This document shows, piece after piece, positions 12,898 to 45,649 of a DNA stretch of 64,000 nucleotides. How positions within the stretch are numbered: position 1 is the first letter of the stretch; each line of letters begins with the position of its first letter. The position numbers and the translations under genes are program-made. Source of the stretch: Xiphophorus maculatus (taxonomy: Eukaryota > Chordata > Actinopteri > Cyprinodontiformes > Poeciliidae); NCBI RefSeq assembly GCF_002775205.1, contig NC_036453.1, positions 14,092,594-14,156,593 on the forward strand. The letters are read 5' to 3'. The notes beneath the pieces were generated by a model. The model was given only the letters and a program-made list of their open reading frames with translations. It did no database searches and was not told the DNA's origin.

Positions 12898-15259
12898 AGC
12901 AGCAGTTAACAGGGTACTTCCTGGGCTTTGTCTAGTTCAAACTCCAGATCTGATCAGTGTAAACATCCAAAGGATTCAGGATTCAGTCTTCTTCAGTAAG
13001 AGTCTATCCGCATCTATTCTCGACTTGCTCATTTTCCCCCTCAATCTAAAAAAGTCTTCCAGATTTGAGGACATATCACCACCTTCTTTAGGTTGTAAAA
13101 TCTAGACATCTTGGATCTGCAGTACGTTGGAAATATCTTTGCCGAATGTTGAAACAAGCAGAAACTGGGTTCAAACCGAGTAGTTGCAGTAGAAACGATG
13201 TTCGTCTTGCCATAGTGGAGTCGTTTTCTGGGAAGGTTTTCTCTGTGCTCTCCCCTTCAGGCCAGCCAGGGGGACGTTGGACACGCTGTGGGACTACTGA
13301 CCACCCAGACTGTGGAAGTTCAGGACTCTGCAGAGCCACAGGAGTCCGGCGCGTCTGCAGAGACCTGGGACAAACAGAGAGGTGCACCGTGGCAATATCT
13401 GACTGGAAGACATTTAGATGTACCATTGTGCATGTTTTAATTTATAACAGCATAGGAAGGCAGAATGAAGGAAGATTTTGATATGGTAGCTGAAACTCTA
13501 TAAGAACTGTATCAACTTAAAAAAAGATTGAAAGCTGTAAGCATGATATTTATAAGGTTACTTCTTATTTTGGTAAAGTGAAGGATTGATCCATAAGCTC
13601 TGATTTCCAACAGAGTTGAAGGTCACAACATTTCTAAAGTCACAAACTGCAAACTGCTCAAAAATGCCGCATTTTTCAGAAGTCATGTATTATTTTTCTT
13701 CACCTTTAAAACAATGTATTGTTTTGTGTTGAATTGTCATATAGAATTGTAATAAAAGACATTTCATTTTGTGAGATAATGTGAAAAAGAGGCATGAATG
13801 TGTGAGGCACCATATTTTTGTGGGTAATAGTGTAAAAAATAGAGTCCTTAATAAGATACATTTAAGTAAATGCTTGTAAATTTTGTTGTTTGAAACTAAA
13901 CAAACATGAGACAACTATAAATGCACACATGTTGAGTTTAAGTTTATCTGATGTTTCTTCGGGGTTTTTTAGGACTTCCTAAAGATGAACTGCAGACGGC
14001 CATTGAACTTAGCCTGCAGGAATCCCACAATGCTGAGCAAGAAGAGCGTGAGTTCAACAGGTAGGTTTAATTAATTACTCTGTTTTTCTTTCAGAGTTAG
14101 AATTATTCTGTCATTTATTTGGGGTTTTATCGACATGATTATGACGATAATCATATCGTCCTTATGATTAGGACGATAAGATACATCATGTTTCATATTT
14201 ACTGGCACTTGTTTTAAGAAAACAAGAAAAGAAAAAGAAAATAAAACCAACTTTCGTACACTTTCCAATATTTAATTCCAACAGTAAAAGAAAAAAAAGT
14301 TTTTGGTTTATTTTTTTTTACAAAATAAGGTTTCACAATTTGTGACACGGAACAATTTCTTTGAAGGTAACAGGGGAAACAATATTTTTTTCTATGTTTG
14401 TGAAGCCCATTCTCTCACCCAGCTTCAAAAGGGGAAAGACAGGAAAAAGTCTTTTTGACCAATTTTGATATAAAGCTTTCTAGTTGCTTTTTCTTGACGT
14501 GTCCAGTAGCTTTGATCATGATAAATCAGTTTGAGCTTTTCCACTCAACTGTTTTCCGTGAACGAACTGATATTCATGACATCAGTCAATGTGGTATTCT
14601 GCTCACAATCAATGACGGGATAGTTACTTTGAAAAAGTAACGTTAATCAGATTACTGATTTCTCCTTGAGAAAGTAACTTACATTACCGATTACTTGATT
14701 TGGAAAGTAACTAAATTAGATTACAAGTAACGTTTTAGTTACTTTCAGCAGCAGCTGACAACAACCCCTCCACCACCGGTGAAAATGACATTGAGCTTTG
14801 CCAATACTTATGTGATTGCTGATTATTTCAGTACCATCAACGATGTCTCTAAACTTATAAGGCTGACCTCAAGGGGAAACTGTTAAATGGTTACAACAGT
14901 CCAAAATAAAAACTTAACTAAAAGTAATTTTTACGTGTTTTTATGTGTTCCACTATTATCAGAAAGACTCTAGATAGGGTTTTAGGGCCTCCTCCCCCCC
15001 AGCCTCCAGGTTCTGTGTTACGGCCCTGCGTTTGGTGTCACAGCGCAGAGCGCAGCGCTTCTCATGCGGCTCCACAACTCAGATGGCTGCACAGATTTGC
15101 GACACTTGTCTTAATCTTAATGATTATAATGGCGTTCAGTTGTGCAGCTTTACGGACACGTTCATTCGTGGCTGTTTTTGCGCTTATTGCGCCGCTCATA
15201 TTAGTCTCGATGTTTGCAGTTCTCTGGAGCGCAACGCGAAGCCCGACGTCATTCACAGG

Positions 15260-15351
<92 letters not shown>

Positions 15352-18300
15352 ACTTATATAAAAACATATATTTATATTTATACATATTTATATTACCTTG
15401 ACATTAGCAATGACACAGATGAACATTTCCCTGTTCATTCGGGAAATGATGAACAGGGAGAGCCTGACTAAAACTACCTGGATGTCAGACAACATCTGGG
15501 TCTCATTGTGTGTCTCTACTTATTTCCAGGCCCAAATGAGCAACTTCATGTTCAAAAACAAGCCCAGAAAAACCGCAATTTGCGACTTTAAAAAAAAAAG
15601 TAATAAATAAATAAAATGCAAGCAAAAAGTCACTTATAATAATCGGACTTGACAGAAACTCAAAAGAGTTTCTGATTGTCCAGCAACAAAATGCGCATCT
15701 CTCTCCTCCCTCCATTGTTTACGTTTCTGTCGCTGCTGACAACTGTCGCCTAGAAACGGCGGTCGCTCCCCAAGACACCTAGAGGAAATAAAATTACATT
15801 ACTAAAGAAAATAGTAACGAACAGTGATTTGGATAAGTAACTTTAATCTGGTTACTGGATTTGAAATAGTAACGCATTAGATTACTCGTTACTGAAAGAA
15901 GAGGTCCGTTGAGACAAAGTGACGAGGTGGCACAGATCGTCTGATTTGTAGGCCTATTACGTCACAGCGCTGCGTGTACTCTTGTGCTGAGACGTCATAG
16001 GTTGTGATGTCACTACTGCTTTGTTGTGTAACACAGTGTATATATAACTCCTGTTGGTAAAATTCTACCACATTCCAAGACAGTACTAGAGGAGACAGCA
16101 TCGAATTAAATTTAACACAGCAATGGATTTACTGGCAGATTCACTGAGACAAGAGCTGCAATATTTAGTAAAGGACTGTGTCATCCCTGCGATCCAGGAA
16201 TACATCAGTCAGATTCTGGAGGAGGATTGGGACCATTTTGAACTGCTACACCTGGGGGAGAGTATTACAGAGAGGACAACATACCTTTTACATTACCTGA
16301 CGGAGGTTTTCTCTGATTTCGTTTGGGACGTCCATGAGAACCTGAAGTACAAATATGGCGATTTAAAAGCCATATTTGGAAGCCAGGTGTCTCAGGCCTT
16401 TGCCCGGGCTATGGGAGTCGACGAAATCATTCATGGAGAGTGTGCCGAGGTATTTGACGTGCTTTTTCTGAAGCACGTTATATCTGTGGTGACATCTACT
16501 GTGGATGATGAAAACCCCAAGTCATTCCTTAAGCTGGGTTTAAGGCTCGGTTCTTTGGTTAAAACTGTGGTCAGTATCGTCCAAGAACTGACAACAGCGA
16601 GAAGACAAATTGAAGAACTGAGGACGTCCTTTGAGGAAGAGAGAAAGGACATAATCCGACTTTTTGTTAAGTCGTTGATGTGTCGAGGCATCAGGGAGTC
16701 CAACACACGTTGTTGTCTTGGCTCCCTGAAAGAGGCACAGGAACGCATTGTTCAACATATCTGCGCTAACATCGAGGGCCAGCCAGACGAAATCCGGCAG
16801 AACTGGATTCCAAGCTTGACCAAAAAGGTCTTCAGGGACCTTACGAAAAGCTTGGGCTGTTCTGCTGGATGGACTCTGGCGTTCATGGAGCATGAGGTAG
16901 TTGACGACACAATTGTGTTGTGTCTTTTGAGTCAACTGGAAAAGCACCAGAAAAAGGGTTGTCATTTTATTACAAGACTTTTTTCTGGTGCTAGGAATAT
17001 CTTGTCCCGGTGTTTCAACAAATGAGGGCCGATAGTGACATACCTTTGTCAATCCTGGCTCCATGACTCCCCACTGTGCCTCCGCCTCTTTGCGCCTCCG
17101 TCGGTCCTGGTATCGTAGACGCCTTTCTGTTCCTCCATCGGTCCTGGTATCGAGACGCCTTTCGGTTGGTTGGTTGGTTGGTTGGTTGGTTGGTTGGTTG
17201 GTTGGTTGGCTGGTTGGCTGGTTGGCTGGTTGGTTGGTTGGTTGGTTGGTTGGTTGGTTGGTTCTTATTCATTAATTTTAAATATGTATTGTTTTTAATA
17301 CTGTGTGAGCACTTAATTTTTGGTGAAACTGAAACTTCAACGCTCACGTGGGCAATGACAGTGAGACCTGGAGGGGCATGTTTGCGAGGTACACCCCCTC
17401 CATCTGAACTCGAGTGGTGACAGAACAACAAAGAAATAGTAACAAAGACACAGGTGAACATTTTCCTGTTCATCCGGGAAATGGTGAACAGGGAGAGCCT
17501 GACTTAAACTACCTGGATGTCAGACAACATCTGGGTCTCATTATATGTCTCTGCTTATTTCCAAGCCCAAATGAGCAACTTCATGTTTAAAAACAAGCCC
17601 AGAAAAACCACAACCCGCGACTTCTGGAAAAAACAAGCCCAAAGTCAGAAACTCAAAATAGTTCCTGATTGTCCAACAACGAAATGTGCGTCCCTCCCTT
17701 CTTTACGTTTCTGTCGCTGCTGATACTGTCATAGAAACTGTGGTCGCTCCCAAAGACGCCTAAGAAATACAATGAAATTACAAAAGAGAATAGTAACGCA
17801 CAGTGATTTGGATAAGTAACTTTAATCTGATTGTGGTATTTGAAATGGTAATGCCACTTTGGCATCGGACCACTTTTTTCAGTAACGAGTTACAACACTC
17901 GTTACTGAAAAAAGTGGTCCGGTGCCAAAGTGGTCCACGTTGCAAAGTGACGTGTTACTGATATCACTGATCACTATACCTAGTGTTCTAATTTCCCAGT
18001 CTTATATATTTATTTATTGACAATTTTGGCTGGATCTGTCCTCCATAGATACAATCTTTAAAAATAATAATGTTTAGCAATCTCTTCTCTGTTTAAGGTA
18101 TTTTAGAGCCTGCCTGTATTTAATATAGCCGTCAGTCTGATGTTTTCAGGAAGATAATTTGATGTCCCACAGAGCTCTGGAAGCCAGCGCTGAAGAAAAT
18201 GCAGCACGAATGAAGAGGAAGAGATGTGAAGCGCAGAGTGAGATGTGCAGCCCTGCAGACTGGATCCGTCAGGATGACTGGCCCGTCGGCATCCGCAACA

Positions 18301-21300
18301 TAGGAAACACCTGCTGGTTCAGTGCTGTCATCCAGGTGAGAGTGAACACCTCGCGTTACGTTTGTGTCATTTCTGTAAACCAGAAGCTTGTAGTGTGCAG
18401 AAGCTTCCACTTGGTGTATGTACTCTATGGGGCAAAGTAGCTTTGCACAACTATTCAACTTAACAGCTAAGCTTTGCAGAAATTCTGTAAAAAAAAAAAA
18501 AAAATTTTAAATACAATATAGAATTTTATTTCATTTATTTAAACACAAAAACTGAAAGTAAATTAGTCCCCATTCACTCTAATAGGTTCAAATTACTTTC
18601 CACAAGGAATTCAACAAAGTATTGCACATGAAAAGTTAAATAAACAATCAGAACAAAAAGCATAAATACCGCAGCCTCAGAAATATCTGGTAAAAATGTA
18701 TAAAAAGCCTTTAATAAAATAGTTTTATTGCAGAGTCACGAACCAATCTTGTAATTTCATTTTAAAGGCAGCAAAAAAAGCTTCAACTTCCTTTAAAATA
18801 CATGCAACTAAGATATTTTATCATTTATGCTTTCATTAAGTTGATCTGTGTATCTAAGGATATTTCCTTCATAAACTAAACATTTAGCTAACTAATTAAA
18901 TATTTGGTTTGAACTCATATATATAAATTTTTTCATAAGATAAGCCGTTTTAATGGGAATACAGATGTTTACCGTTGCACCGACTCACCAGCAAGAGTCT
19001 ACTTCGCAAGGTCCAGCTTTTATTTTGATAGTCCACTTCCAGTAGTGGAATTTTTTGTGAATATTTAGTTTAGAGCTAAATATTTAGCTTATTTTCTAAC
19101 TAAATGCTAACTGCTTGCTTGCTAATTATGTGTTTAGTTTGAAACTGACATTTTTATGTGAAAAATATAGGCTTGAAAATGTAAAAATTAAACCTCCATT
19201 TCTTTCCTCTTCTGAGAGGCTAAATAACCAAAATGATTCCTGTTCATTTTTGACACTTTTCTGAATGGAAGCACAACACACACCAACACCATCGTATATT
19301 TGTTTTAGCGGGGAGCAGAATAAATGTAGATACAGTTGTTCAAATGTTCAAACAAGCTTTTACACTTCTGTTTCTGCTTCTTGCCAAATTTATGAGCCTC
19401 CCAGATACTTCAATTTATTGCTGCTGTTTAGCAAGGTCCTATGTGACTCCAAACCAGCGTTGACGACATGGCTGCAAGGGGATGTTGCTCAAATTTCCTC
19501 CTCATCATTATTTCCTGCTAATGAGGTTAAAAATCGACCTGAAAAACAAACTGGAGAGAGGAGGGGAGGGGGAGGGCGGCCTTCAGCTAAATCAGAGCAA
19601 ACAGTTTTTATCTCAGCTGCTAATTGTGTTATAAGTCCATTCCAGACTGAAGCCACGCAGGCCTATCAGGTGGCTCGACAGAAACCAGAACCCTCTCTGA
19701 GGTACGCAGCCTCTGCGGTTAATTGAGCGCGGAGCGATGCGAGGACGTCCACAGCAGACAGAGACAGGAGAAGGGGATTGTTTGTGTCTGTTAAACTGAG
19801 ATATGCTTCTGTCTCCATTTAGGCGTCAGGCGGTATTATCTGAGGAGGTGTTGTTGGAATACTAATGCTCTCCTATTTTCTGAGTTAACGCCATTTCCTC
19901 TGGTTCAGATCGAAGCTGAGTGACTGCAGGATTCAATGGGCGGCTCATAAATTACAGTAAACCTGAGATAAGGCATAACTGAATTTCCCTCTCTAACGGG
20001 AACGCTGAGAAGCATTCTTCACTCACCAGGTTATCGTGGTATTGACCGCAGGTGTCCTGTAACAAACAAGTAAAACTTTTTGACATTTGTCACAAAACAT
20101 AATCGGCAATGAAACAAAACGTCTTATGTTAATAGAGTCATATTTTACAAAATTTACTTTGTTATCCACATCTGGCACAAACTTTAAGGTTGATACAGGG
20201 CACATTCACACCAGTCCTGTATAATCCCCTTTAATCCAACTCCAGTCCATTTTCCTAGAAGGCCCGGTTGGTTTGGGGAGGCGTGAATGCGTAATCAAAA
20301 TCAAAAAGGCGAACTCTGGTCTAACTACAACCCTCGGCCTCAGTTTGATTGAAGTGAACTCTGGTGCAGTTTGAATGCATACTTAACGCCATGTGGTTCG
20401 AAAGCAGGAAGGTTTTTGGCATTCCTGCAGCCTACAGCCAGGGCATTCTGGGTAAATACAACCAAAACAAACACAAGAGTCTGGCGATAACGGGAGAAAT
20501 GACTCATGGTCTTTTAGAAAAGACCAAAGCGAAATCCTACAACTGCTAAAATCTGATGCCACTCCATGTTTTTTTTTTTACATTTTGTGAGAAAGAAAGT
20601 TATTCTCAGTGTCTTCTTCAGACGTTTTCATGTTGTGGCTTTCAGTTATTCTTGGTGCAGCGCCACCACAGGCGGGGAGGAGAGCAGGATTCTTAATTGG
20701 TTTGGTTTGTTTGACACAGGGCAGTGAGAAAGCGACTTGGAGCAGCTGAAAATGTAGCAAATGTTCCAATTTTAGTCCCCAATTAAACCGAATCTACCAG
20801 ACTGTCAGGAGTGAAAACATTGTTAAATTGCTTGTTCTGTCATCTTGTTGCAGTCACTCTTCCACTTACCTGTGTTCAGGAGGCTGGTTCTCAACTACCA
20901 TCTGTCAGAACGAATTCTGGAAAAGTGTAAGAGTCATGCTGTGAGTAGTTAGCTTTCTGCTACATATTTCCTTCCTGCAGACAAAATGCAACTGGCCATG
21001 GCAAAACCAGGAACACGTTTCCCTGAGGGCATGTTGAGTTATGTAAGATTCTGAAAATGTAGATTCTAACCTTTCTTTCACTAGTATATTCAGGAAAAGA
21101 ATCTTTATTTTCCCAGAAATTGGTAGTTGCTATCTTTTCTCCCGGGTTTTGCTCCGGCCTCTTGTTCCTGGATTTCCTGTGGCGCGTCACAACTGGTTTT
21201 TTTGCATATAAATTGTCCTTAAAAATGACCTAAATTTCAAAGACATTGTGACAGTGTTTAAGCTGATGTTTGACTGAGACTTTCTGACGGCAGGACAAGA

Positions 21301-40187: not shown

Positions 40188-41260
40188 TAGACCAAAATGA
40201 AAATGGGATTGTCAAAATGCTGATCGAGACCTATAAGGGTAAAAAAAAAACACAGAACAGTGTCCTTACTGTATTGGAAAATAGAGGCACTAATACTTTG
40301 GATATTAAAACAAAATGGGAGAGGGAATTGGAAATTCTGCGAACGGAAGATGACTGGTTGAATATCTGGAAGACCCAAACTACGACATCCTCTGCCAGAA
40401 TTTGGAGAGAACATTGTTGGAAAAATATAATCAGATTTTTTATAACACCCAAAACTACCAGTAAATTCAAATCTACTGTTCAGCCGTGTTGGAGAAATTG
40501 TGGAGCATCTGATGTTAATCATGCCCATATTTTTTGGCTTTGTCCGAGAGTTACACAGTTCTGGAACGAAATACACAAAAAGACTGTAATAATATTAGGT
40601 TACATCATACCTAAGACCGGTCTGGTTTTATATCTTGGCCTTTTGGAGAATGTTGTTCTTAATAATGACTGTTGTTTGTTTAAAATTCTGTTGGTGGCTG
40701 CCAAAAAGGTAATAACTAGGAAGTGGTGCCAATCTGATCCTCCCACCACAAAGGAATGGATACAGACTGTGAACTCATTATATGAGATGGAGATTCTAAC
40801 GCATAGACTGAGGACACAAGAAGAGCAATGTGAGGACAAATGGGAAAAATGGATAAACATCACATCAACGTTACAGGACTAATATTGGATATGAACGGTA
40901 CCCTTGAATTTTGTAATTCTGGAATAGGAGTCTCCCCCCAGTAGGTTATATTTGTTTTGTTTGTTCTGTTTTTTTTTTTTTACCCCTCCAGGGGGTCTTT
41001 TTGTGGGCTCTAGTGTCCCTTATATAATAGTAGGCTGACAGGAAACGGGGAAGGAGAGGGGGGAAGACATGCGGCAAATATCGTTGGGTCCGGGAGTCGA
41101 ACCCGTGACGGCCGCGTCGAGGACTGAAGGCCTCCAAATACGGGTCGCGCTATCCGCTACGCCAGCGGTCCCCTGTTCTGTATTTTTTGTATTGTTTGAT
41201 TTTTCTTTTTGAAAGTATTCTAAAAATTTTCAATAAAAATAAAGTTATAAAAAAAAAATA
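40188..41260 (+). mobile_element. 5'-truncated L1/Tx1-type LINE, 3' end
   Basis: An open frame from about 40190 to the stop at 40882 encodes the C-terminal end of a LINE ORF2. Marks are KWERELEI, W.NIW, a CWRNCG...HAHIFWLCP zinc-knuckle-like motif and FW. It is followed by a 3' UTR and CAATAAAAATAAAGTT plus an A-run ending at about 41260. No reverse transcriptase or endonuclease domain remains, so it is a dead insertion in the orai2 5' intron. A SINE interrupts its 3' UTR. Confidence 0.82.
40970..41173 (-). mobile_element. tRNA-derived SINE, copy 2, inserted in an L1 3' end
   Basis: Same family and orientation as the copy at about 25.8-26.0 kb. It is flanked by the direct repeat TGTTCTGT at 40962-40969 and 41174-41181. 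The LINE 3' UTR resumes after it. Confidence 0.9.
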
Positions 41261-44385: not shown

Positions 44386-45649
44386 ATGAGCCGGGAGCTG
44401 AGCGTGCAGATGGGCTCCCCGGTCCCCGGGGTCTCTGAGCCCCCGCCTCCTGACAACGGGGGCATGGACTACAGGGACTGGGTGCGGCGCAGCTACCTGG
44501 AGCTGGTCAGCTCCAACCACCACTCAGTCCAGGCCCTGTCCTGGAGGAAGCTTTACCTGAGCCGGGCCAAGCTCAAGGCCAGCAGCCGCACCTCCGCCCT
44601 GCTCTCTGGCTTCGCAATGGTACGTCTAAAAAAAACCCAAAACAAACCACTTTCTGTAGGAAGTCTGTGTTTTGTTTTTTTGTGGACTTAAAGACTGGAA
44701 ATCATTTTGGCTTCACCATTATCTCCACAATCATCCCTGAAACCAGGAAGTGGTTGCAGGTTTCCTCTTTGTGGCTTCGGTTTTGCACTGAAGGTTTTGG
44801 ATAGGCATATCGTTTACTTTTTATTGTGATATATTTCTTATCACAGCAAGAACTTTGATTTATAGTTATGGTGTATTCCAAATATAGCAATAACATAAAC
44901 ATAACAATAAAAGTTATCCTTATCAATAAAAGTTATTTTATTGATAACATTCCACTTTACCATGGAATGTAGTGATTAAACTTGCCAACCCCTGATTCAG
45001 ATATTCCTATCGGATCGGTGCGTCTTCACCACACAGTTTGTTCTAACGGGGTTTTGTGCTGCAGGTGGCCATGGTGGAGGTGGAGCTGGATTCGAAGTAC
45101 AGCTACCCTCGAGAGCTGCTCATCTCCTTCGCCGTGTGCACCACGGTGCTGGTGGCCGTTCACCTCTTCGCCCTGCTCATCAGCACCTGCATCCTGCCCA
45201 ACGTGGAGGCCGTCAGCAACATCCACAACCTCAACTCGGTCAGCGAGTCACCGCACGAGCGCATGCACCACTACATCGAGCTGGCCTGGGGGTTCTCCAC
45301 GGCGCTGGGCATCCTGCTGTTCCTGGCCGAGGTCGTGCTCCTCTGCTGGATCAAGTTCCTGCCCGTCGACCGTGGCTCCAAGGACGACGCCAAGGAATGC
45401 CCCAGCAGCCCCACCAGCCCCACCAGCCCCAGCCCCACCAGCTCCAGCGCTCCGGCGAGCGGCTGGCAGGCGGCGCTGGCCTCCACCATCATCATGGTCC
45501 CGGTGGGAATCATCTTCCTCATCTTCACCATCCACTTCTATCGCTCCCTGGTGGGCCACAAGACGGAGCGCCACCACCAGGAGATTGAGGAACTGCACAA
45601 GATTAAGGTGCAGCTGGACGGCCAGGAGAGAGGCCTGCAGACGGTGTGA
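44386..45649 (+). CDS. orai2: ORAI calcium release-activated calcium channel 2
   Basis: Pore subunit of the store-operated (CRAC) plasma-membrane channel gated by STIM proteins. Two coding exons, 44386-44619 and 45065-45649, give 272 aa. The first exon begins at 44381 after TCCTCCAG. Seen in the protein: [16 protein letters not shown]-terminal region, basic inner-pore residues with Arg68, TM1 [13 protein letters not shown] with filter glutamate Glu83, TM2 with [16 protein letters not shown]3 with Glu167 (counterpart of ORAI1 Glu190), TM4, and a C-terminal STIM-binding helix [21 protein letters not shown]2 rather than ORAI1 is chosen because the N-terminus is short, lacks the ORAI1 proline-rich extension, and the C-tail matches ORAI2. 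The TM3-TM4 loop carries a low-complexity SPT repeat. Confidence 0.96.

Follow-up and report, generated by a model that had tools for sequence, protein, structure and literature searches.

An intronless gene of an undescribed multicopy superfamily, associated with a hAT-type MITE, in a usp28-type intron of Xiphophorus maculatus

An intron of a usp28-type gene of Xiphophorus maculatus, located in a 64-kb stretch of DNA that was analysed as a whole (hereafter the window), holds an open reading frame (ORF) of 300 aa which is very probably a working single-exon gene of the host genome. It belongs to a superfamily that is undescribed in the libraries, and its history would be one of copying as DNA together with its promoter, in linkage with a MITE, followed by selection; arrival as a passenger of that element and transcription from its own promoter are the parts of this explanation that we infer. 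The ORF has a family in the same genome, a promoter region conserved among its copies, a MITE associated with it and a record of selection. Below we describe the gene and its family, weigh the alternative origins and compare the arrangement with systems already known.

The open reading frame and its host intron

The ORF is genuine, not a frame left open by chance. It runs from an ATG to a TGA with zero internal stops and is the longest of the ATG ORFs in the window (Table 1). A length of 300 aa was reached in none of 1000 order-2 simulations of positions 15912–17160 (maximum 276). When 64 kb was simulated 60 times at order 3, ORFs grew to 210 aa at most, versus the 300 aa observed. GC content by codon position is coding-like (51/34/51%) and the start context, GCAATGG, is good. 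The initial annotation had described a 301-codon ORF with a good start context, lying between two repeat copies and preceded by a TATA/CRE-type region, and all of this was borne out: coordinates, length and context agree, same-orientation repeat copies lie at ~15405–15911 and 17440–17932, a TATA box is found at 16039–16046, and two CRE half-sites precede it, at 15959 and 15992.

Table 1. Features of the ORF-holding intron and its surroundings (window positions)
Feature	Position	Strand	Evidence or remark
Intronless ORF (300 aa) of the undescribed multicopy gene family	16123..17025, stop codon included	+	ORF scan, simulations, genome copies, branch selection test
TATA box (16039–16046) and downstream core motif TATATATAACTCCTGTTGGTAAAATTCTACC	16039..16068	+	Conserved among close copies
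Two CRE-like sites, TTACGTCA at ~15957 and GACGTCAT at ~15991	15957..15999	+	First conserved in C19 and C17/C16 copies
Left MITE copy, terminal inverted repeat CAATGACGGG (CAATGACG) at 14610	14610..15911	+	Element positions 1–1189 of 1204, body to ~15909
Right-half MITE copy, element positions 682–1155 (17440–17854), hairpin, end GATATCACTG (17960–17969)	17440..17969	+	Repeat alignment
Near-perfect hairpin in right MITE copy	17855..17933	.	80-bp stretch against its own reverse complement, 90%
CTCACAAT, candidate left target-site duplication	14602..14609	+	6/8 match to 17970–17977
ATCACTAT, candidate right target-site duplication	17970..17977	+	6/8 match to 14602–14609
Host-gene exon, USP28/USP25 Cys box	18150..18335	+	Downstream of the ORF-holding intron, same strand as the ORF

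The host-gene exon scores 42.7 bits against USP28 chains and 33.3 bits against a USP25 chain over the same 29 residues; its top-scoring match overall, with 49.8 bits across 56 residues, is to a longer USP25 chain. A pattern search for the short upstream usp28 exons found none. Just 3' of the ORF, GC-rich repeats of 33–37 bp and a (GGTT)n run occupy 17083–17260; related GC-rich units also occur around the copy on contig C17, both upstream of it and within it. Between the gene and the right MITE copy lies GTGAAACTGAAACTTC (17325–17340), which we take to resemble an interferon-stimulated response element. Elsewhere in the window, a tblastn match to the ORF at 37.4–37.6 kb (E 0.016) was taken as chance; it adjoins a region whose translation reads by eye as a Tc1-like remnant. 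Two further ORFs, at 40217–40882 and 45071–45649, look by eye like a LINE tail and a partial ORAI channel gene, respectively.

Identity of the protein

With the window protein as query, no Pfam or NCBIfam family scored past its curated cut-off and neither PHROGs nor PDB gave a convincing match; the same was true of its relatives and their profiles against Pfam and PDB. The best near-miss, found in a relative, was MGMT_N with 20.1 of the 22.1 bits required; together with DUF6279, DUF7079, Listeria phage frames and the designed protein OR386 it was rejected as falling below cut-off or varying between relatives. No title in the literature searched was recognisably on this gene family, and related terms may exist elsewhere; "undescribed" therefore means absent from the libraries and literature searched here. 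Such proteins are presumably annotated in fish only as "uncharacterized", among many predicted ones of similar look. No stretch of the product has the hydrophobicity that a clear membrane span would require, and judging from its sequence it is likely to be a soluble two-domain intracellular protein.

A gene that is multicopy, dispersed and intronless, with a compact promoter, fast divergence and mobile elements as neighbours, could also be viral, or could encode a structural or accessory protein of a mobile element, rather than being a host gene. We consider this unlikely. Viral contigs held no relative by protein or by alignment, phages gave only noise and PHROGs no relative, a result of little weight, given how thinly these collections cover animal viruses. 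No relative was confirmed in bacterial or archaeal genome contigs, and exact patterns of the flanking repeat were absent from the viral contigs. A Pfam search of the ORF found no transposase, reverse transcriptase or integrase family, which argues against a mobile-element origin and concurs with the earlier claim that nothing in the ORF resembles such proteins.

A dispersed gene family

The family was searched for in the assembly from which the window comes (704 Mb, 101 contigs), so that the counts describe one genome and are mostly lower bounds. With the window protein as query, 76 candidates, all of them scored, yielded 41 matches, which by place correspond to 32 loci. There are 21 close loci, the window copy included, on 12 contigs, and 11 remote loci with 22–29% identity, mostly in much longer open frames (159–736 aa). 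Besides the window copy, seven close members are full-length and uninterrupted (four in a cluster on C19 and one each on C17, C16 and C23), and these, like the window copy, consist of a single uninterrupted coding exon; the remaining close members are broken, truncated or fragmentary. A second query, a 722-aa member on C5, gave at least 68 matches (62 of 163 candidates scored), and the union of both queries comprises at least 78 loci on 22 contigs.

Comparison of profiles built from six close and seven long members aligned both ends (probability 99.4%, E 2.6e-21). The long members carry N- and C-terminal regions like those of the window protein, set apart by long linkers; the window protein is a short form, composed of the N-domain and the C-domain without the long linker. 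Nine C-terminal matches, each in a 531-aa frame, occur over ~110 kb at C7:17147908–17257106 (L040); this array at 17.15–17.26 Mb is a tandem expansion of a long member. The subfamily on C17, C16, C23 and C18 (L017–L021) shares blocks of 3.2–3.7 kb across chromosomes at 80–88% identity. These blocks terminate in an AT-rich stretch, without the MITE, and no inverted ends are visible on them by eye. The initial annotation had proposed an undescribed real gene and had suggested counting its copies. The first part stands, and 20 further close loci exist in the same genome; the scale needs correction, since the gene is not a lone unit but a short member of a superfamily that numbers at least 78 loci.

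The promoter region

Alignment of 14 upstream regions shows a shared TATA box and, after it, a CTCCT-TTGGTAAAATTCT-like core; 10 of the regions match the strict core pattern and the other four deviate by a few bases. Upstream of these elements, the window, C19 and C17/C16 copies have a TTACGTCA or CACGTCAC site in common. CRE sites were counted in the 250 bp upstream of six chosen representatives, one per subfamily, with overlapping hits counted separately. Five of the six contain one or more strict CRE half-sites, compared with 7.7% of 1319 background tiles. All six contain two or more hits of a looser CRE set, compared with 2.7% of these tiles. The long members have CRE-like sites and lack the TATA core of the close copies. 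From these motifs, transcription of the ORF from its own promoter appears likely. Promoters that combine CRE and TATA elements are common in male germ cells, and the expression of the gene might be driven by CREB/CREM/ATF factors, possibly in the germ line.

The TATA box, the core motif and the CRE-like sites lie upstream of the predicted transcription start and are common to the copies, and for this reason the gene would have spread as DNA that carries its own promoter, not as a copy of its mRNA. The contrary proposal, a processed retrocopy of a spliced parent gene, would account for the lack of introns and for the 5' truncation of copies on C17, C20 and C12. It is scarcely credible in view of the shared CRE-like sites and TATA box, the absence of a poly(A) tract at the 3' ends, and the finding that every full-length copy retrieved is intronless, with no spliced parent seen, albeit without a dedicated search.

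Selection on the window copy

Pairwise omega is 0.06–0.14 among the four C19 copies and 0.30–0.43 among the C17, C16 and C23 copies. Between the window copy and the seven intact copies it is 0.24–0.29, rough values given a dS of 1.2–1.5 and the resulting saturation. In a tree of 18 copies, the window copy and a C17 copy with a broken frame (L010) are sisters with 100/100 support, and the C7, C20 and C12 copies come next. Changes were polarised with four outgroups (the C7, C20, C12 and C21 copies). The window branch carries 42 polarised changes, 21 synonymous and 21 non-synonymous, versus 17 and 68 on the branch of its broken sister (Fisher p 0.0009). With the transition bias set from 1 to 4, the window branch departs from neutrality (p 0.0001–0.006; omega 0.30–0.42, and 0.28 by an initial count) and the sister branch looks neutral (p 0.057–0.61). 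The frameshifts of the sister may inflate its non-synonymous count; it still serves as an internal control that the method shows decay.

Since half of the changes on its own branch are synonymous and its decayed sister behaves as neutral, the window copy has, on this comparative evidence, been retained by purifying selection and kept functional. The dN/dS comparison that the initial annotation had proposed thus comes out in favour of a maintained gene. Many close copies are broken, and the end branch of the window copy is at least as long as those of several broken copies, both of which would suit a decaying copy whose open frame survives by chance. The departure from neutrality on the window branch, set against the decayed sister, makes such a survival very unlikely.

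The flanking repeat and the composite block

On C20, the flanking repeat exists as a complete ordinary copy (L038), which measures 1204 bp, has CAGTGATG at both ends and is flanked by a perfect 8-bp target-site duplication, GCCACCAC. On the strength of these inverted terminal repeats and this duplication, the repeat is classed from its sequence as a hAT-type MITE. The inverted ends and the 8-bp duplication also led us to reject an LTR element, which direct flanking repeats might otherwise suggest, and the ORF has no reverse transcriptase or integrase domain of an LTR retrotransposon. In the left copy of the window, the final ~15 bases are unrecognisable. A 152-aa frame lies at 14943–15401 within this copy. 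Its middle resembles a signal anchor, with a GT donor-like site and an (AT)n run after it, and a 44-residue part of the frame had zero matches in NCBIfam. The end of the right copy agrees with the element end at 9 of 10 positions, and it is the one match of at least 8/10 in the 450 bp searched, where ~0.2 would be expected by chance. The hairpin within the right copy has sub-threshold matches to several unrelated miRNA families; Rfam matches, all below the gathering score, falling mostly on this hairpin and differing in family, were discarded as hairpin noise.

Fifteen MITE pieces were found in 29 loci and the window, all 15 in gene orientation. They lie near 11 of the 21 close loci (the window, C7, seven of the C19 cluster, C4 and C21), so the shared flank that the initial annotation had suggested looking for is present at about half of them, the seven C19 loci being one cluster and hence non-independent cases; none of the 11 remote loci has one. 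The other ten close loci, including the C17/C16/C23/C18 subfamily, have no MITE piece in the stretch examined, and three of these (C17 at 18.4 Mb, C20 and C12) lack the 5' part. As the junction between MITE and gene is identical in the window and C19 copies, the association predates their split. In this lineage the gene would have travelled with the hAT-type MITE just upstream of it and in the same orientation. The MITE is not the sole vehicle, because ten of the 21 close loci are without it and the C17/C16/C23/C18 copies share their 3.2–3.7 kb without it.

MITE ends at 14610 and 17969 enclose the gene in the window. The candidate target-site duplications immediately outside them agree at 6 of 8 positions, a level attained by 0.67% of random pairs. 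Downstream of other gene copies, no right MITE end was found at any of the loci examined, nor was a second arrangement of left end, gene and right end (40 of 504 candidates scored genome-wide). The six best non-self matches of the right copy, among the 40 candidates scored out of 504, are the left copy of the window and five gene-linked copies on C19. On the same chromosome, 1.37 Mb away, a 183-bp piece at C11:12741071–12741255 is 92% identical to the right copy.

From this arrangement, the block 14610–17969 may have been delivered into the usp28-type intron in one transposition with the gene as passenger, after which purifying selection would have retained the gene; the right copy could also be an unconnected remnant in the vicinity. 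In an alternative account, a MITE already resident in the intron and the one that preceded a donor gene underwent ectopic recombination or template switching, which would give a similar block without transposition of a composite element; we regard this as plausible, though on the whole less than probable. A nearly complete left MITE facing a right one that is a half is expected if repair copied the donor and then returned to the resident MITE, and the right half is found in the window only, with no other copy among the loci examined. The right copy is closest to gene-linked and not to ordinary MITEs, which speaks against recombination, although the same pattern would result if the resident MITE belonged to that subfamily.

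Significance and relation to known systems

A superfamily that numbers at least 78 loci in a single vertebrate genome, has members under purifying selection and is unnamed in Pfam, NCBIfam, PHROGs and PDB represents a sizeable annotation gap, and the repeats and intronic positions of this superfamily mean that pipelines may easily mask or skip its members. The link to a hAT-type MITE offers a concrete case for asking whether animal transposons move intact, promoter-bearing genes that are later selected. A bolder and rather doubtful extension is that a self-sufficient cassette, made of a CRE/TATA promoter and one exon, rides vertebrate hAT-type MITEs and is selected where it lands. If true, the family would spread like a transposon and yet be preserved as genes are, for instance through a role of its product in the germ line, where transposition and CRE-driven expression would both take place.

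Four known systems invite comparison. MITEs of the hAT superfamily are non-autonomous DNA transposons, and the C20 copy, with its 1204 bp, CAGTGATG ends and perfect 8-bp duplication, resembles them; the window block differs in having an intact selected gene, a duplicated right half and an imperfect target duplication. Gene-capturing transposons, Pack-TYPE and similar (PMC8903248; PMC13317346), likewise hold host-type coding sequence between the ends of a non-autonomous element. In the window, by comparison, the captured unit is an entire intronless animal gene that has its promoter and shows evidence of selection, and its mobilisation as one unit is putative. Lineage-specific (orphan) multicopy genes of teleosts are similar in having no library family, many recent duplicates and a chromosome-wide spread, whereas the window family has a distinct two-domain architecture and a CRE-like promoter. 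Nested intronic genes share with the window gene the own promoter, the single exon and the position in a host-gene intron on the same strand; unlike them, it belongs to a dispersed family linked to a mobile element, in which a stable and ancient nesting is not seen.
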